64,000 nt of DNA. It comes from an uncultured Roseburia sp. (GTDB lineage: Bacteria > Bacillota > Clostridia > Lachnospirales > Lachnospiraceae). A model generated the notes under the pieces. It ran no database searches and was not told where the DNA came from. It was given only the letters and a program-made list of their open reading frames with translations. Of this stretch, positions 12,607 to 20,764 are shown in pieces (position 1 is the stretch's first letter; each line of letters opens with the position of its first letter). The DNA lies in the NCBI GenBank assembly GCA_947647505.1, contig CANSKO010000008.1, positions 62,001-126,000 of the forward strand, given 5' to 3'. Made by a program: the position numbers and the translations under genes.

Positions 12607-13353
12607 TTACGCTTGCTTTTCCGACACGCCAAACACCTTTTCGCCAATCAGAATTAAAACTACGGCCACGGCAAACAGCGTAACGAACGCCGCAGCAGCG
12701 CGCACAAGAAACATCGTCGTATAATGCTTTTCATACCACGCGTCGCAGAACGCATAATAGACAGAGCCCGTCGGCGCGTCATACGTTTCACACAAAGACC
12801 GCAGCGTACTTGGAACGCCTTTTAAGGCTTTTCTTCCAATTGGCAAAACGACATGTTCGCCACGCCGGATGGCGTCTGCGTCGCGTTTTGGAATCTGCGC
12901 CAGAATATAGCTTTCATCGGGAAGCTTTAGCAGATAAAACGGCAGATAATCTTCCCTGTTATGAAACAGTCCGTCCGGACTTTTATACTGTAAAAACTGC
13001 GGCTTCTTTTTGGGCGCGCCATAAGCCCTTCCTTTTCTTGTCCTGCGCTGCGTATAGGGTTTGACCCACGATTTCAGTTCATACGCCCCCGTAGCGACAA
13101 TATCGATCGGTTCCGCCGTAAATACGGGAGAAAGCGTCGTTTCAAACGCTTCTTTTCCGGACAGGCGGGGAATATCGTCTCCCGCCTCAGCTCCCGTATA
13201 ATCCGTCCCTCTATTTTCCTCTGCCTCCTTTAGCGTAACCGGTTCCCTTTCTTCCCGAAACAACGGCTCAACATCCAGATTCACAAACAAAACGTAAGCC
13301 GCCACAAGGCCGATTAACGTGCTGCAAACAGCAATCACTTTTCCCTTTTTCAT
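12607..13353 (-). CDS. Unrecognised membrane protein of a two-component operon
   Basis: 248 residues from the ATG at 13353, preferred because AGGAAGG stands 9 bases upstream; an ATG at 13362 overlaps the kinase stop with no spacing. One hydrophobic segment lies at the N-terminus (VIAVCSTLIGLVAAYVLF) and one near the C-terminus (FLVRAAAAFVTLFAVAVVLILI), leaving about 170 residues between them, probably outside. This part has a basic patch (YTQRRTRKGRAYG) and a FYLLKLPDESYILAQIP strand. It is the last gene of the regulator-kinase operon, so it may be the sensor partner or target. No family is recognised. Confidence 0.7.
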   Translation of the reverse strand: MKKGKVIAVCSTLIGLVAAYVLFVNLDVEPLFREEREPVTLKEAEENRGTDYTGAEAGDDIPRLSGKEAFETTLSPVFTAEPIDIVATGAYELKSWVKPYTQRRTRKGRAYGAPKKKPQFLQYKSPDGLFHNREDYLPFYLLKLPDESYILAQIPKRDADAIRRGEHVVLPIGRKALKGVPSTLRSLCETYDAPTGSVYYAFCDAWYEKHYTTMFLVRAAAAFVTLFAVAVVLILIGEKVFGVSEKQA

Positions 13354-13358
13354 CCCTG

Positions 13359-14648
13359 TCATCCTTCCTGTTTTCCAACTGTCTGAAACGTCACGCGAAA
13401 CGACGTGCCTTCCTGCGCGCTGCTGTCCGCCTCCATTCTGCCGTTCATGCAGTCTGTCATGCGCTTTGCGATCGCAAGCCCAAGCCCGTGTCCGCCGCCC
13501 TTTGCTCTGGATGGGTCCGCACGGTAGAACCGCTCAAACACATACGGCAAATCCTCCCTGGGAATAACGGCCGATCGATTGTTTACCACCAACGCCGCAT
13601 GCTTTCGCACAACGGAAAGCGAAATCGTAATTTTACCGCCAGACGGCTCATACTTCACGGCATTTTCGATCAAAGCCTGCGCAATCCGTTTCAGATACTC
13701 TACATTCCCCCGCACGTAAACGTCTTCTGCAATCGCCGTTTCATACGTAATCTTTTTTTCATATGCGACAGATTCCAGAAACAGCGCAATCTGTTCTACG
13801 GCGTTTGAAAAACTGACCGTTTCCATTTCTGTTTTCGCCCCGACCGCCTCCAGGTCGGATAAAAGCAGCATTTCCTCAATCAAAGACTGCATTGCTTCCG
13901 CAGCGGCTTTTGTCCCGTCCACCCATTGCATCAGCTCACGAACGCAGACGTTTTCATTGCCGCGCAAAATACCCATATTGGCAAGCACGACTGCGACAGG
14001 CGTCTTTAAATCGTGCGACGCATCCGCTACAAACTGCTTTTCCATTGCAAACGCCGCTTCCAACGGGCGGACCGCAACACTTGCCAGCCGTCTGCTGATC
14101 GCATAAAAAACCAGCATGGCGCATAAAAAAATAAGCACAAGCATACCCGACAAACGAATGGACGCGACACGGAGAAACCCGATATCCGCCACAGCTATTT
14201 TGACGACCGGACCTGTCTTTCTTCTGTAATAATACAGGCCCTCCTCCGAAAGAGCGCCGTACGCTTCCGGCGCCGCGGCAATCTCCCTTGCAATCTTTTG
14301 CAAAGACTCTCCTTCCTGAATAAATGACTTTGACAGAAGCGAAAGCTCTCCCGTATCCATGTGATAGAAAAAAATGGACAGATTTTTTTCATAGATCTTT
14401 TTTTCCCGCTCTGCTTCCTCTTCCGGTCCCGGCGGCAGCGGCCATGGTTCTTCCCGAAACGGAAAAAACCGCTCTTCTTCCGTCCGCATGCCCCCGATCG
14501 GCTCCGTCAGCTGCGCCATCGTCGCTTTTAAATCTTCTTTGTTTCGATAGCCGGAATAGACAAACACAGCCAGAAGCATGAAAAAAAGCGCGCTTCCCGC
14601 CAGAAGCATATTCGACAGGATAAACCTCTTCCTGTACGCCGCTAACAT
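13359..14648 (-). CDS. Membrane sensor histidine kinase
   Basis: 429 residues. Two membrane helices (about 10-30 and 168-188) enclose a roughly 135-residue extracellular sensor that is rich in Pro/Glu (PFREEPWPLPPGPEEE). The cytoplasmic part has an H-box (FVADASHDLKTPV), N-box (ALIENAVKY) and G-box (GGGHGLGLAIAKR), complete for a class I kinase. The start overlaps the regulator stop by 7 bases (14642-14648), so the two are translationally coupled. The signal is unknown; the acidic sensor could respond to cationic peptides or metal, but this is a guess. Confidence 0.92.
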   Translation of the reverse strand: MLAAYRKRFILSNMLLAGSALFFMLLAVFVYSGYRNKEDLKATMAQLTEPIGGMRTEEERFFPFREEPWPLPPGPEEEAEREKKIYEKNLSIFFYHMDTGELSLLSKSFIQEGESLQKIAREIAAAPEAYGALSEEGLYYYRRKTGPVVKIAVADIGFLRVASIRLSGMLVLIFLCAMLVFYAISRRLASVAVRPLEAAFAMEKQFVADASHDLKTPVAVVLANMGILRGNENVCVRELMQWVDGTKAAAEAMQSLIEEMLLLSDLEAVGAKTEMETVSFSNAVEQIALFLESVAYEKKITYETAIAEDVYVRGNVEYLKRIAQALIENAVKYEPSGGKITISLSVVRKHAALVVNNRSAVIPREDLPYVFERFYRADPSRAKGGGHGLGLAIAKRMTDCMNGRMEADSSAQEGTSFRVTFQTVGKQEG

Positions 14649-15412: not shown

Positions 15413-15440
15413 AAAAAGGCTGATGCCTTCGCATCAGCCC
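15413..15440 (-). terminator. Terminator of the ligase-ACP-acyltransferase operon
   Basis: On the minus strand GGCTGATGC-GAAG-GCATCAGCC, a 9-base-pair stem with a tetraloop, followed by TTTTT. It lies 30 bases past the ligase stop. Confidence 0.88.
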
Positions 15441-15469
15441 TCTCTTTCCGATCCCTTTCCTTCTCTCCT

Positions 15470-16981
15470 CTAATGCCGTTTGATCTTTCTTGCCGCCGTC
15501 TTCTCAAATTCCTGTTCGCGCACGGTAAGCTTCGCCACCCGTTTATAAAGCGGCGCATCCTGATTATAAGCGTCCACCAGCTCCTGCAGCGACGCTTCCA
15601 GATCCGAAATCCCCTGCTTGCTTGCATATTCCAGATCCGGGAAGATTTCGGCTTCGATGACGCCCTCGCGCTCGCGCACCAGAACCTCCTGCGCCAGCCT
15701 GTGCCTGGAAAGCTTATTTTCGATCTCCTCCGGCGAAACATTCTCACCGTTCTTTGTAATAATCAGATTTTTCTTCCTTCCGGTCAGGAAAAGAAAACCG
15801 TCTTCGTCCACATACCCAAGATCGCCCGTCTTAAGCCATCCGTCTTCTGTCAGCGCCTCCGCCGTCTCTTTTTGCATCTTATAATAGCCCTGCATCACGC
15901 TGCTGCCTTTTACCCAGATTTCTTCCTCTACCACTTTTGCCAGACAGTTTGGCATCAGCTTTCCAACGGAATTCGGTTTACGGTTCCAATCCAGATTCGT
16001 GCTGATAACGGGCGCGCATTCCGTCATGCCATAGCCCTGTAAAATCGTAATGCCATATTTCTCAAACAATGCGATCCAGACCGGATCTAAGTATGCGCCG
16101 CCGCTGCAAATCGTATGAAGGCGTTCGCCAAACACTTCTTTCTTTACGATCTCAGGCGGCAGAGCGGCTGCGTCTTCCAGTTTTTTTGCAAACGATTCGA
16201 TCATCATGGGCACCATCAAAATCATATCCGGTCCAAACAGCTTAATATTTTTGGCTATGCGCATGATGGAATCATTGATGCAGATGATGCTTCCAAGCGA
16301 AATTCCCTTTAGAATATCCATGCTCAGGCAATATGCATGATGAATCGGCAAAACCGAAAGAATGACCGTCCTCGATGGAATCCGCATATCAAGACAGGTC
16401 GCGTTCTCCGCCAGATTACGCTGGGTCAGCATAACACCCTTGCTCTTCCCCGTCGTGCCGGACGTAAACAGAATTGTACACAAATCCTCCGGATTCGCCC
16501 ATGCGTCAAAACCGCACGCACTCTCCTCCAACAGCCTTTGCATCGCATCTGCTTCGCTGTCCGGCTCTTCCTTCTGCATGGAAATCACCTTTTGCAGCTT
16601 CGGGCACTTCTGCTTTGCAAGCGCCGCCACATCCGCGCGGATTTCATCATACACAAGCACAGACGCATCGGAGCGGTCAATCAGCTCGCACAGCTCCTCT
16701 GCCGGCAGCGCCACGTCCAAAGGAACCGCCACGCTGCTGCAATTAACCGTTCCAAAATAGGCGACCAGCCAGTGATAAGAAGTCATGCCGACAATCGCCA
16801 CATGCTTTCCCTGCATTCCCATCGCCTTTAACGCGCCGGAAAAGTGTTCGCTGTCTTCTCTTAACTGCGTATAGGTTTTCGACTCGATGCAGTCTTTTCC
16901 GGTTTTGTAACGAATGGCGTCCTGCCCTCCAAATCGTTCCTGCGCCTGTACTAAAATTTCACGAATTGTATTGCATACCAT
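15470..16981 (-). CDS. AMP-dependent acyl/aminoacyl ligase
   Basis: 503 residues, the length of a free-standing adenylating enzyme. Core motifs are present: the P-loop-like LFTSGTTGKSKGVMLTQ (about 168-184), YGMTECAPV, the GWLKTGDLGYVDEDGF hinge region, GRKKNLIITKNGENV, and a C-terminal lysine in TAARKIKRH. It should activate a carboxylic acid with ATP and load it on the ACP encoded 12 bases upstream. The substrate pocket cannot be read by eye; fatty and aromatic acids and amino acids are all possible. It is the last gene of the five-gene operon controlled by the TGACC-N3-GGTCA operators. Confidence 0.88.
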   Translation of the reverse strand: MVCNTIREILVQAQERFGGQDAIRYKTGKDCIESKTYTQLREDSEHFSGALKAMGMQGKHVAIVGMTSYHWLVAYFGTVNCSSVAVPLDVALPAEELCELIDRSDASVLVYDEIRADVAALAKQKCPKLQKVISMQKEEPDSEADAMQRLLEESACGFDAWANPEDLCTILFTSGTTGKSKGVMLTQRNLAENATCLDMRIPSRTVILSVLPIHHAYCLSMDILKGISLGSIICINDSIMRIAKNIKLFGPDMILMVPMMIESFAKKLEDAAALPPEIVKKEVFGERLHTICSGGAYLDPVWIALFEKYGITILQGYGMTECAPVISTNLDWNRKPNSVGKLMPNCLAKVVEEEIWVKGSSVMQGYYKMQKETAEALTEDGWLKTGDLGYVDEDGFLFLTGRKKNLIITKNGENVSPEEIENKLSRHRLAQEVLVREREGVIEAEIFPDLEYASKQGISDLEASLQELVDAYNQDAPLYKRVAKLTVREQEFEKTAARKIKRH

Positions 16982-16993
16982 ACCGATTCCCCC

Positions 16994-17221
16994 CTAATCT
17001 GAAATCCGGCTCAGATACTCCATCGCCTCTCCCACCGTGCGCAGCCCTGCCGCTTCCCGCTGCTCCACCTCAAGGTCAAACGCTTCTTCGATTTCTCCCA
17101 GCATGCTCATAAAGTCAAACGACGTAAATCCCAGATCTTCTACAAAACGGGACTCAGGCACGATTGCCTCCGGGTCCGCTTCCACATAATTCACAATGAT
17201 TTCTCTCAGTTTTTCCAGCAT
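16994..17221 (-). CDS. Free-standing acyl carrier protein
   Basis: 75 residues with the four-helix carrier pattern: acidic throughout, PESRFVEDLGFTSFDFMSML, where the Ser of FTSFD (residue 34) is the phosphopantetheine site. It carries the variant GFTSFD rather than the DSLD of fatty-acid AcpP, typical of carriers in specialised pathways. AGGAGG precedes the ATG by 6 bases. It lies between the ligase and the condensation-like gene with 10-12-base gaps, so the three should be made together. Confidence 0.88.
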   Translation of the reverse strand: MLEKLREIIVNYVEADPEAIVPESRFVEDLGFTSFDFMSMLGEIEEAFDLEVEQREAAGLRTVGEAMEYLSRISD

Positions 17222-17231
17222 ATCGCTCCTC

Positions 17232-18635
17232 CTAAATCAGTTTTAAAATATCGCCTACGGAAAGATTTGGATTTTCCACTCCCTTGAACATGATTTTGCA
17301 GAGATAATAATACAGATATTCCAGCTGCTTTCGGCTGATCGCTTTTACCTGATGCTCAAAATTGAAATCCAGGCCGTTATCCTCCGGCCGATGCATCACC
17401 GTCAGATACATCGCCTGCGTCGTCGCGCCATTTGGATACCATTTCGTCTTATACCGAATCTCCCCAAGCTGCTCTAAGCCTTTTTCTTTCAGCGTCATCG
17501 GCTGATACGTCAGAGACATCGGCTCATACGTGCAGCCTCTTGGATTCGGATAAACCTGACTGCGATATGCGAAATAAGACACCGGATCATAATTGGCATG
17601 GCGAAACAGCTCATTCTGCCGGTCTCTGATCTCAAACAGCGCGTCTAAAAACGTTTTCTCCGGCGAAATGATCGTACGGAATGGAAACGAATGGATACGG
17701 GTGCCGCCGCATTTTTTTTCTTTTAACGTGGCGCGCCTTGCAATCGCCGTATTGATGGATACGTCGTCGTTGCCATTCATTTTCTGAAAATACGTCCGAA
17801 GTCCCATAATCAAAAGACAGGTCAGAGAAATATGCTGCGCGTTGCAAAAATCCATCAGGCGCTTTGTCGGTTCGCCCTCCAGATGAAAAATATCCAGATC
17901 CGACTCCACCGAATCGGAAACATTTACAGCTGCCCGAAGAGACGGCTTCCCCTGTCTGTCCCGTTCCATTTCAAGCTTTGCCGTTCCATCAATGCCATTG
18001 TAAATCGGCTCAGAGCTTTCAATCAGGCTCCGGAAAAAAGCTTCGTCCTTCTCCCTTGCTTTCGATCCCGCCTCATACGAAAGATCCTTCTTCAGCTGTT
18101 CCAGATAAGAAGACATATCTTTTGGATACGGCACATTTTCATACATGCGGCTGCTGTACAGTTCAATGATGTCTTTCAGAAAACAAATCAAAGACTGCGC
18201 ATCCATAATCAGGTGATCCGCCAGAAGATATACGCCGCTGAATCCGTCCGGCGTTTTTATCATCACCATGCGGCTCATGGGAGAATCTTCCCTTTTAAAT
18301 GGAACCTGCGTCCATTTTTTCATTGTCTCTTCCGCTTCCTCCATCGTGACGCCGGAAAAATCCATATATTCAATTTCCTGCTTCACCTCGTCTACCACGT
18401 ACTGATACCATACGCCTTCTTTATCCTTTGCAAACTGAAGCCGCATGGATTCGCTTCGTTCATATGCTTTTAAAATAGACGTCTTTAAGACTTCAAAATC
18501 CAGCTCCGTTTCAATCGTCAGACTGGTGCCAATGTTGACGACTGCTTTATTCGGACAATAATCCAAATAGAAAAAATGAAATTTCTGCGCCGCCGTAAGC
18601 GGGTATACGTCATACCCTTTTCTTTTTCTCATCAT
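17232..18635 (-). CDS. Condensation-domain-like acyltransferase
   Basis: 467 residues from the ATG at 18635 (GAAAGG 7 bases upstream); a GTG at 18659 is less likely. The fold pattern is that of nonribosomal-peptide condensation domains and the related acyltransferases (two chloramphenicol-acetyltransferase-like halves, early YPLTAAQKFHF). The active-site motif HHxxxDG appears as DHLIMDA at about residues 140-146: the catalytic His and the Asp are kept, the first His is Asp and the Gly is Ala. As a single domain beside a discrete ACP and ligase it probably moves an ACP-bound acyl group to an amine or alcohol. The acceptor is unknown. Confidence 0.78.
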   Translation of the reverse strand: MMRKRKGYDVYPLTAAQKFHFFYLDYCPNKAVVNIGTSLTIETELDFEVLKTSILKAYERSESMRLQFAKDKEGVWYQYVVDEVKQEIEYMDFSGVTMEEAEETMKKWTQVPFKREDSPMSRMVMIKTPDGFSGVYLLADHLIMDAQSLICFLKDIIELYSSRMYENVPYPKDMSSYLEQLKKDLSYEAGSKAREKDEAFFRSLIESSEPIYNGIDGTAKLEMERDRQGKPSLRAAVNVSDSVESDLDIFHLEGEPTKRLMDFCNAQHISLTCLLIMGLRTYFQKMNGNDDVSINTAIARRATLKEKKCGGTRIHSFPFRTIISPEKTFLDALFEIRDRQNELFRHANYDPVSYFAYRSQVYPNPRGCTYEPMSLTYQPMTLKEKGLEQLGEIRYKTKWYPNGATTQAMYLTVMHRPEDNGLDFNFEHQVKAISRKQLEYLYYYLCKIMFKGVENPNLSVGDILKLI

Positions 18636-18658
18636 AAAATAGCCTTTCTCCCTTTCCA

Positions 18659-19603
18659 CTATTGAAACAACGTCTCTTTCAGAAACAAATCCAACGCTTT
18701 CTCATAACGTCCGGTATCCATATAATAGCTCTCCGCATGCGCTGCGCCCGGCACAATCAGCTTCCATTTCTCTGCCGCGCAGTTCTGATACATCTCCTCG
18801 CACATGCAAACCGGAACAAACGTATCTGCGCTGCCATGTATAAACAGAGTCGGCGTAACGGATTTTTTCACTTCCCTTGCCGCATTGCACGTATCCATGC
18901 CATAGCCCGCCAGCTTCCGATTCATCCTGTCCGCAATCTGAATGATCGGAAACGCCGGTATATGGTACATCGTATGCAGCACATGCGTAAAGACCTCTTT
19001 GGGAGAAGTAAACCCGCAGTCGGAAACAATGCCCTTCACCTGACGCGGCAGTTTTAAGCCTGACGTCATCAAAACCGTCGCCGCGCCCATCGACGTCCCG
19101 TGCAGAATGATGCTGCAATCCTCCCCGCACGTCTCAAGCAGCCATGCGATCCATTGCAGCGCGTCCATCCGATCCAGGCATCCAAATCCAATGTATGTCC
19201 CTTCGCTCCTTCCATGCGCCCGCGCATCGACAAGCAGCATGGCGTATCCGCGCCGCAGATAGTAATCGGACAGGCCGATGTAATCCTTCATGCCCTCGCT
19301 CGTATATCCATGAAAGCACAGTATAACGCGCCCGCTTCCCCCGTTTGGAAAAAACGTCCCGTGCAGCCGCAGCCCGTCCTCCGAATGAATCCATACATCC
19401 TCATGCGGCTGGGAAAGCATGTATTCCTTACATTTTCCTATTTTTTCGGCGTACTGGCTCCAGTCTGTGCCCGCCATCTTCATCGTGCGCTCCACTTTTG
19501 CCCTGCCGCGCTTCATCGTCCTCCTGTAAAAATAGGCCGACAACAGAACTTCGGCTGTTAAAACCGCGCCGGCCGCTCCGAGCATCCCCTGCATTTTTCC
19601 CAT
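18659..19603 (-). CDS. Membrane-anchored alpha/beta hydrolase
   Basis: 314 residues. A single N-terminal hydrophobic segment (MLGAAGAVLTAEVLLSAYF) anchors an alpha/beta hydrolase. It shows ILCFHGYTSEG (oxyanion strand), the nucleophile elbow GTSMGAA (Ser near residue 170), an Asp in HGSADTFVP and a His in AAHAESY, so the triad is complete. Its place between the SCP2 and condensation-like genes suggests it releases or trims the product as a thioesterase or lipase-like enzyme. AGAGG stands 7 bases before the ATG. Confidence 0.85.
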   Translation of the reverse strand: MGKMQGMLGAAGAVLTAEVLLSAYFYRRTMKRGRAKVERTMKMAGTDWSQYAEKIGKCKEYMLSQPHEDVWIHSEDGLRLHGTFFPNGGSGRVILCFHGYTSEGMKDYIGLSDYYLRRGYAMLLVDARAHGRSEGTYIGFGCLDRMDALQWIAWLLETCGEDCSIILHGTSMGAATVLMTSGLKLPRQVKGIVSDCGFTSPKEVFTHVLHTMYHIPAFPIIQIADRMNRKLAGYGMDTCNAAREVKKSVTPTLFIHGSADTFVPVCMCEEMYQNCAAEKWKLIVPGAAHAESYYMDTGRYEKALDLFLKETLFQ

Positions 19604-19615
19604 ATGAAAACCTCT

Positions 19616-19951
19616 TTATTTTTTCTTTCTGCTGTCGATGATCGCTTTTAACCGCAGCGCTTTCTCAATGCTGCCCTCCACCTTCAGCTTCTGCGTCGTA
19701 ACGGCCCAGATCGGGTCCAGCTTTCCTTCCGCAATTTTCTTTAACGTTTCTGCCGAACAGGTAAACATCGCGTCCCTGTCATAATATTCATACGGCTCCA
19801 CAAAAATTTTTCCGTCTTTCGCTTCGACGTAAAAGATGCCTTCCCCTTCTCCCGTAATATTAAACTGATACGCCAGATGTTCCGTTATTTCGGAAATATC
19901 CGCCTCCATAAATTTCCCTTTGATCTCCGAAAAAAAATCTGCATACGTCAT
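19616..19951 (-). CDS. SCP2 sterol-binding-domain protein
   Basis: 111 residues, a complete single SCP2 domain: YQFNITGEGEGIFYVEAKDG, then FTCSAETLKKIAEGKLDPIWAVTTQKLKVEGSIEKA (shown in part: KLKVEGSIEKALRLKAI). The family binds acyl chains or other apolar ligands in a tunnel. As first gene of the ligase/ACP operon it points to a lipid-like intermediate or product. It is intracellular, with no signal peptide. GGAGG lies 7 bases before the ATG. Confidence 0.85.
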   Translation of the reverse strand: MTYADFFSEIKGKFMEADISEITEHLAYQFNITGEGEGIFYVEAKDGKIFVEPYEYYDRDAMFTCSAETLKKIAEGKLDPIWAVTTQKLKVEGSIEKALRLKAIIDSRKKK

Positions 19952-19977
19952 GCCTGCTCCTCCATTCTTTCTAATTC

Positions 19978-19989
19978 GACCGTCGGTCA
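19978..19989. promoter_or_regulatory. TetR operator 1 (GACC-GTC-GGTC)
   Basis: GACCGTCGGTCA, identical in its core to the second copy at 20021. It lies downstream of the minus-strand -10 box, in the leader of the SCP2 operon, so a bound repressor would block the polymerase. Confidence 0.75.
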
Positions 19990-20005
19990 GTTTCTGTTCA
20001 AAATT

Positions 20006-20034
20006 ACAATAACACTAATATGACCGTCGGTCAA
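20006..20034 (-). promoter_or_regulatory. Promoter of the SCP2-hydrolase-acyltransferase-ACP-ligase operon
   Basis: On the minus strand TTGACC, 17 bases, TATTGT. The -35 box lies inside TetR operator 2. Confidence 0.6.
20021..20033. promoter_or_regulatory. TetR operator 2 (TGACC-GTC-GGTCA)
   Basis: TGACCGTCGGTCA overlaps the -35 of the minus-strand promoter and abuts the -35 (20038) of the plus-strand TetR promoter, so one site can control both directions. Confidence 0.75.
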
Positions 20035-20037
20035 GTA

Positions 20038-20066
20038 TTGATTCAAAAATTTTTTCGTGCTATACT
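20038..20066 (+). promoter_or_regulatory. Promoter of the divergent tetR gene
   Basis: TTGATT, 17 bases, TATACT; about 80 bases before the gene start. Confidence 0.55.
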
Positions 20067-20146
20067 TTACACAGATTTTTACCGGATGGACGGCCAGTGG
20101 CTTTCCATCCGTAACAGGAATATTATTTTCCGGGAGGAGCGCCATT

Positions 20147-20764
20147 ATGCCAGCTATGGACAAATACAACCGCATTTTGGATGCACTTTCTGCTTTGCTG
20201 GAACAAAAGACGCTGCGCACAATCTCTGTCAGCGACATTGCGCAGACGGCCGGCATTGCAAAAGGCAGCATCTACTACTACTTCGATTCCAAAGACGCCA
20301 TTGTAGAAGCGCTCGTAGAGCGCAGCTATTCCGCTTCCATCGAAACGGCCAAACGGCTTGCCGGGGAAACGACGATTCCGCCGTTCACCCGCATGGCGCT
20401 GATTTTTCAGGCATGCCGAAATTCCTCCACCGAATTTTTAAGGCAAAATACGGCGACGGACGCAAATATGCAGGAGCGCACTCTGCTGCACCAGAAGTAT
20501 CTTCGTTATATTATAAAGGAATTGAACCCAGTCCTTGCCAGAATCATCCGACAGGGCATTGACGCCGGAGAAATCTCCTTTGAATACCCTGACGCATTGG
20601 CTGAGATCGTACTGATTGTACTGACTGTGAAAATAGACAATACGCTGATTCCCTCTACGCCGGAGGAAATCGAGCGCACGATTATCGGTTTGATTGCGCT
20701 TTTGGAAAAAGGAACGGACAATCCAAAAGGCTCGCTGAATTTTCTGACGCTTCCCTCTGCTTAA
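20147..20764 (+). CDS. TetR-family regulator of the adjacent acyl-ACP operon
   Basis: 205 residues from the ATG at 20147 (GGGAGG 8 bases upstream); an in-frame ATG at 20057 lies in the promoter and is rejected. The helix-turn-helix is VSDIAQTAGIAKGSIYYYF with DSKDAIVEAL following. The C-terminal ligand domain is about 140 residues, ending with a Pro/Lys-rich tail. Divergence from the SCP2 operon, with two identical palindromes between, makes it the probable local repressor, perhaps released by an acyl ligand. Its stop overlaps the stop of the convergent YfhO gene by 3 bases (20761-20764). Confidence 0.9.
   Translation: MPAMDKYNRILDALSALLEQKTLRTISVSDIAQTAGIAKGSIYYYFDSKDAIVEALVERSYSASIETAKRLAGETTIPPFTRMALIFQACRNSSTEFLRQNTATDANMQERTLLHQKYLRYIIKELNPVLARIIRQGIDAGEISFEYPDALAEIVLIVLTVKIDNTLIPSTPEEIERTIIGLIALLEKGTDNPKGSLNFLTLPSA

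Follow-up and report, generated by a model that had tools for sequence, protein, structure and literature searches.

What does a short bacterial operon that sets a lipid-binding protein and a hydrolase beside the parts of an acyl-transfer pathway make, and how is it switched on? The question is raised by a locus in a 64,000-nucleotide stretch of contig CANSKO010000008.1 from an uncultured Roseburia sp. (the window, hereafter, meaning that whole stretch), in which five genes form an operon on the minus strand (15470-19951) and a sixth, for a TetR-family regulator, runs divergently on the plus strand. Judging from the sequence comparisons below, the operon is very probably a regulated and extended form of the fatty-acid-amide cassette known as the CTA operon, which would turn free fatty acids and an amine into an N-acyl amide under TetR control. 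An earlier note, made from the letters of the window, had described these genes as an acyl carrier protein (ACP) operon with its own TetR switch, and Pfam searches recovered all six in the place and order it gave:

19616..19951, minus strand: SCP2-family protein, 111 aa, the operon's first gene (PF02036, 53.8 bits, cut-off 21.3)
18659..19603, minus strand: alpha/beta hydrolase, 314 aa (PF12146, 49.6 bits, cut-off 27)
17232..18659, minus strand: stand-alone condensation (C) protein, 475 aa, motif DHLIMDA (PF00668, 135.8 bits, cut-off 30.6)
16994..17221, minus strand: ACP, 75 aa (PF00550, 41.4 bits, cut-off 20.8)
15470..16981, minus strand: AMP-forming acyl ligase (A), 503 aa (PF00501, 217.1 bits, cut-off 29.9)
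20147..20764, plus strand: TetR-family regulator (PF00440, 50 bits, cut-off 24; also PF21303)

A GTG at 18659, an alternative start for the C gene, overlaps the stop codon of the hydrolase gene, and an ATG at 18635 or 18632 is the likely start. With that start, the gaps along the operon are 12, about 23-26, 10, and 12 bases, in keeping with the 10-30 bases of the note. For the TetR gene, the ATG at 20147, preceded by GGAGG, is the more likely start.

The condensation protein and its relatives

Compared with the protein sequences in the PDB, the C protein has its best match in 12KH, over residues 18-474 (E 2.5e-109), with the next match at 1.3e-10. 12KH is OaaC, a free-standing fatty-acid-amide enzyme of Coprococcus eutactus, which is reported to join ACP-bound fatty acids to free amines, giving fatty acid amides (PMC13142362; here and below, PMC numbers stand for the parts of each source's text that were covered). 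The earlier note knew of no named product for this gene order. That statement needs revision, as the product class is known and C-ACP-A is the order of the fatty-acid-amide (CTA) cassette; a pathway without a known product class was rejected on the 12KH/OaaC match.

Relatives were sought in a sample of 299 genomes from the family to which the window belongs, and a C match at E 0.001 or better is present in 72 of them. One band of 29 genomes (the window's own included, one partial) carries a stand-alone C protein at 55-100% identity. Another, here called the OaaC band, comprises 14 places with a stand-alone C protein at 35-38% identity, and 13 of these 14 proteins share 43-56% identity with OaaC. 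The remaining matches reach at most 31% identity and lie mostly within long multi-domain frames. An IQ-TREE phylogeny of 44 sequences, namely 41 C proteins of the fatty-acid-amide (FAA) type and three domains of nonribosomal peptide synthetases (NRPS), with starter C domains of known function left out, set all 41 FAA-type proteins apart from the three NRPS domains (support 100/100) and placed a window clade (99.7/99) and an OaaC group (99.9/100, without L097; L numbers denote loci) as sister clades. In a tree that includes proteins found at class level, the clade of proteins ending the motif in Ala has support of 98.5/99.

Per Pfam, PF00668 spans residues 17-471 of the C protein as a single, stand-alone condensation domain. 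The earlier note read the active site as DHLIMDA with His and Asp kept, and this reading holds, as His149 and Asp153 are kept at a level of at least 97% in the window clade and the OaaC group alike. The last residue of the motif is Ala in 98/98 window-clade proteins (the window's included) and Ser in 14/15 of the OaaC band. A motif that differs from HHxxxDG is described as typical of FAA C proteins, and among 127 published ones the last residue is Ser in 42%, Ala in 36%, and Gly in 17% (PMC13142362). The window's protein thus has the features of an FAA C protein, i.e., one stand-alone domain, the second His and the Asp kept, an Ala end, and a position with OaaC in the tree. It falls outside the OaaC subgroup, lying in the sister clade and ending in Ala rather than Ser, and outside the canonical NRPS condensation domains, with DHLIMDA in place of HHxxxDG and a stand-alone rather than multi-domain form.

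The CTA operon is described as a three-gene C-ACP(T)-A array that a survey of 7,781 isolate genomes located in 36 species of Lachnospiraceae, with assignment set at 70% identity or more to the Chang et al. C and A proteins, and it is linked to oleoyl, palmitoyl, and linoleoyl ethanolamine and to oleoyl dopamine (PMC13060934). In CTA-bearing Blautia, acyl ethanolamines are reported to go up and added amines to relieve fatty-acid toxicity (PMC13060934). The window's C, ACP, and A genes are adjacent with the ACP in the middle, the same order, in the same family, as in the CTA operon that PMC13060934, following Chang et al. 2021, describes from Blautia and further Lachnospiraceae. The OAA cassette of C. 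eutactus (OaaA, OaaACP, OaaC; PMC13142362) is similar to the window in having a stand-alone C protein with discrete ACP and ligase, and OaaC shares the second His and the Asp of the motif and the FAA clade with the window's C protein, whereas the two differ in overall sequence (39% identity), in the end of the motif (Ser versus Ala), and in falling into sister clades. We take the AMP-ligase as the acyl-ACP loader. The note had proposed a small non-modular pathway in which the ligase would load the ACP and the C protein would pass the acyl group to an amine, which agrees with the CTA pathway as described. Its own ground for doubt, that ligase and acyltransferase might come from unrelated pathways, does not apply, because both belong to one known pathway.

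Residues expected of working partners are largely kept in relatives: the attachment Ser of the ACP in 109/109, Lys179 of the ligase in 104/107, and its Lys499 in 98/107, the other 9 being gaps. One PF01648 phosphopantetheinyl transferase match was found in the window's own assembly and could serve to activate the ACP. The core of the operon is therefore mostly explained as a member of the fatty-acid-amide cassettes, of the sister clade to that of OaaC.

The six-gene block in other genomes

Compared with the OAA cassette, for which PMC13142362 names three proteins, and with the CTA operon, described as three genes in PMC13060934, the window has a six-gene block with SCP2, hydrolase, and TetR genes and twin operators added. 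The main text of PMC13142362 makes no mention of a hydrolase, SCP2, or TetR, and that of PMC13060934 none of TetR, a regulator, SCP2, a sterol carrier, a lipase, or a promoter, each as far as covered. The parts of PMC10469787, PMC9886687, and PMC13292554 that were covered likewise say nothing of a regulator, an SCP2 protein, or a hydrolase connected with CTA cassettes.

The block was followed through 98 window-clade loci, i.e., 80 named loci selected solely for the similarity of their C proteins, together with 20 of the 28 high-identity genomes other than the window's own, minus two duplicates. Among testable loci, the hydrolase gene lies upstream of the C gene in 94/94, SCP2 upstream of the hydrolase in 84/93, and a divergent TetR gene next to the operon in 77/87; the ACP is present in 95/96 and the ligase in 92/93. 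All six genes occur together in 63 of the 78 uncut loci, so that the check the earlier note had proposed, a search for its gene order in other genomes, found the order kept. A chance neighborhood was rejected, since the flanking YfhO gene is found in 4/80 named loci (in 54 of these 80, the sequence extends 4500 bases or more upstream of the C gene) while the six-gene block is kept.

Both added proteins of the operon show conserved features. In the hydrolase, Ser171, Asp260, and His289, which we take to be the catalytic triad from general knowledge of the fold, are conserved in 97/97, and esterases, rather than amidases, come first among its PDB matches. The note had called this hydrolase membrane-anchored; the fold stands (PF12146), and the N-terminal anchor is only suggested, with a best 19-residue hydropathy value of 1.59 (a value of 1.6 is reached by 26/101 relatives). 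In SCP2, residues 52-60 form an EPYEYxDRD block that is near-invariant in the window clade and may mark a surface for a partner (ACP, C protein, or hydrolase). The window's own genome also holds a second SCP2 domain away from the operon (C3:122149-122400, L083; 32.7 bits, in a 352-residue frame).

Among the 14 OaaC-band loci, SCP2 is beside the C gene in none and a related hydrolase is present in 5. An SCP2 domain exists somewhere in 8/14 OaaC-band genomes, never beside the OaaC-band C gene, and that of genome G149 lies in its window-type block. G149 carries both a window-type six-gene block (L105) and a second C gene, of the OaaC band, without nearby ACP or ligase genes (L096). A wider look at 391 genomes at class level gave matches at 1e-30 or better in 22, and 11 of these 22 places were retrieved. 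All 11 have the C-ACP-A order, 6/11 have the hydrolase upstream of the C gene, and none of the 11 has an SCP2 or TetR gene by window-clade profiles or an operator motif. This distribution suggests stepwise growth, from C-ACP-A to a form with the hydrolase and then to one with SCP2, TetR, and operators, with deep branching that is weak in the tree (22.9/27).

The TetR regulator and its putative twin operators

The gap between the SCP2 and TetR genes contains two copies of one short palindrome around a promoter-like site, and a terminator-like element follows the last gene of the operon:

20022..20032, no strand: putative operator O2, GACCGTCGGTC, overlapping the -35 element of the operon promoter
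19978..19988, no strand: putative operator O1, GACCGTCGGTC, downstream of the -10 element, 44 bp from O2
20006..20034, minus strand: promoter-like site of the operon in the SCP2-TetR gap (TTGACC, 17 bases, TATTGT with an extended TG)
15413..15439, minus strand: terminator-like hairpin and U-run directly 3' of the ligase gene (fold z-score -6.64)

Of the single promoter and single terminator named in the earlier note, the terminator is supported by the hairpin. The promoter-like site is weak by itself, because the region contains 7 such sites versus 5.2 expected, and its conservation across loci is the better evidence.

Across loci, the palindrome has the consensus GACCRNYGGTC. In 78 relatives, two duplicates still included, at least one exact copy occurs in 71 and at least two in 40, and 39 of these 40 have copies spaced 43-45 bp apart; among the 31 relatives with a single exact site, 28 carry a one-mismatch partner 43-45 bp away. 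Within the same loci, exact palindromes number 111 in 22,929 intergenic bases versus 3 in 1,017,795 other bases. With the duplicates removed and the window added, pairs at up to three mismatches are present in 74/77 loci versus 0/1540 shuffles, and after clustering by C-protein identity in 52/55 clusters at 90% and 18/21 at 80%. We rejected chance palindromes on the intergenic enrichment and this comparison with shuffles. In 74/74 paired loci, the -35 sequence TTGACC lies within O2 and is followed at a fixed position by TGnTA, an extended -10-like element, with O1 beyond it. This layout is the one of a repressor acting on the operon promoter, as far as the sequence can indicate.

The regulator looks dedicated to this operon, given that the motif occurs at 4 places in the window's own assembly, two of them at the operon, and that a reversed-pattern control also gives two; a wide TetR regulon was rejected on the same counts. 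Bacillus-type FadR and other fatty-acid TetR regulators share the TetR family with the window's regulator, and differ from it in that the window's sites stand at one promoter rather than genome-wide and in the match to the FadR model (43.4 bits versus a cut-off of 200). Among the better PDB matches of the TetR protein is 3WHB, named a fatty acid metabolism regulator protein (E 1.2e-7). No palindrome pair was found among the 14 OaaC-band loci, and one of them (L086) has a single site. Seven of the 14 (L084-L089, L092) have a distant TetR-family gene nearby, at 21-27 bits versus the window-clade TetR profile, and window-type and OaaC-type cassettes perhaps have separate regulators.

Several loci depart from the usual arrangement. 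In L031 (173-2274), two operator sites 43 bp apart remain beside SCP2 while the TetR gene is displaced, as if the regulator gene had moved and its sites had stayed. Among the nine loci without TetR, sites occur in L037 (one), L040 (one), and L045 (two), and in none of the other six. L049, L050, L066, and L068 have lost SCP2 and kept TetR with the palindrome pair; SCP2 matches elsewhere in the genome number none for L049 and L050 and two each for L066 and L068. Farther along the window, at 12607-13362 on the minus strand, lies a gene for a 251-aa protein with hydrophobic ends, adjoining a two-component system, for which neither Pfam nor NCBIfam gave a match to the protein at E 0.1.

A literature search made mostly at title and abstract level retrieved no publication on the six-gene form or on the twin-operator switch. 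Chang et al. 2021, which was among the sources outside that search, may show the gene order, and the twin-operator switch is apparently new.

A proposed mechanism and its alternatives

In the proposed mechanism, the ligase would use ATP to activate a free fatty acid and would charge the operon's ACP with it; the C protein would then transfer the acyl group to an amine that diffuses freely, releasing an N-acyl amide. SCP2 may hold the fatty acid or the amide product, and the hydrolase may free fatty acids from esters or edit acyl thioesters. TetR would bind both palindromes, O2 over the -35 and O1 past the -10 element, and close the promoter; release would come with the binding of an acyl ligand. 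The benefit could be fatty-acid detoxification, by analogy with what is reported for Blautia wexlerae. The C protein's grouping with OaaC and the retention of catalytic residues, gene block, and twin palindromes on the promoter are seen in the sequences and point this way; we infer the substrates, by analogy with OaaC and the Blautia work, as well as the amine, the roles of SCP2 and hydrolase, the binding and ligand of TetR, and the benefit. More tentatively, and at somewhat less than an even chance, the operon may be a self-contained, ligand-switched amide module, in which TetR senses the free fatty acid or its thioester at the twin-operator promoter and the substrate is supplied or buffered by the hydrolase and SCP2.

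We would like to note the observations that weigh against an extended, TetR-controlled CTA cassette. Identity to OaaC is 39% only, so the amine, and even the type of bond, could differ. When read by labels after rooting, support for the window clade is 0.291 and 6.2/39 (its unrooted split has 99.7/99), and in the tree with class-level proteins the deeper order is weak (22.9/27) and outer groups mix Ala and Ser. Ala also ends the motif in 3/7 readable NRPS C domains and is not diagnostic of the window clade. The OaaC band is itself not uniform, with 11 of its 14 loci in the order C-ACP-A, one as C-A-ACP (L097), and two with the C gene alone, lacking a nearby ACP or ligase gene (L093, L096). SCP2 is not in place in L049, L050, L057, L059, L066, L067, L068, L108, and L098 (the last by a distance limit, its SCP2 frame sitting slightly farther upstream). 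TetR is missing in L037, L040, L045, L055, L059, L067, L098, L103, and L106, and in L031 it lies on the same strand as the operon, about 1 kb away, not divergently. With SCP2 missing in 9/93 loci and a divergent TetR in 10/87, neither is indispensable. Among the 77 loci, L058, L104, and L107 have no good palindrome pair, and the -10 match is modest, with 4 of 6 positions reached in 47/74 loci versus 22/74 with shuffled spacers. The best NCBIfam model for TetR is FadR, at 43.4 bits far below its cut-off of 200, which makes the ligand of TetR a guess. Lastly, the link to the Blautia work is one at the level of the genus group rather than of B. wexlerae itself: in the group of L061 (titled Blautia sp.), 12/20 genomes encode a C protein that shares 59-72% identity with that of the window, with no OaaC-band match listed at 1e-30, so the Blautia results may concern the window type.

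Other explanations were also considered. The A, ACP, and C proteins might acylate a molecule of the membrane or envelope at an amine (or alcohol) group, with SCP2 and the hydrolase serving that step, so that no diffusible amide is made. The low identity to OaaC speaks for such a cell-bound lipid, as does the fixed presence in the window clade of SCP2 and a possibly anchored hydrolase, the former absent beside OaaC-type genes. Nevertheless, we consider it unlikely: FAA-type C proteins are reported to use free amines (PMC13142362), the conserved block holds no further lipid enzyme, and blocks without SCP2 keep the rest, four of them retaining TetR and the paired sites.

It is quite improbable, in our estimation, that the hydrolase instead cleaves the amide or acyl-ACP in a turnover cycle, with conjugates made and broken as a fatty-acid store; its Ser-Asp-His residues are intact throughout and it adjoins the C gene in every testable locus, yet its best PDB matches are esterases rather than amidases, and sequence cannot tell its substrate. 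The C protein does fall within the NRPS condensation family, and published work puts FAA C domains close to starter C domains (PMC13142362), both of which would suit a fragment of a peptide synthetase pathway with its remaining modules elsewhere. This we regard as very improbable, and a split modular synthetase was rejected, because the condensation gene is the sole PF00668 match in the window's own assembly (2.59 Mb, 86.8% complete) and the C protein is stand-alone in relatives of at least 55% identity.

SCP2 and the hydrolase, which are conserved alongside the cassette, are missing from the three-gene descriptions. In the literature, the production of oleoyl ethanolamine, oleoyl dopamine, and related compounds with activity at host receptors is attributed to operons of the CTA type (PMC13060934, PMC13142362). 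Should the ligand-switched module be the correct reading, the supply of fat would control the synthesis of these host-active lipids by way of a so far undescribed regulator. If the twin-operator TetR is the switch, the trigger of amide production in many gut species becomes testable.

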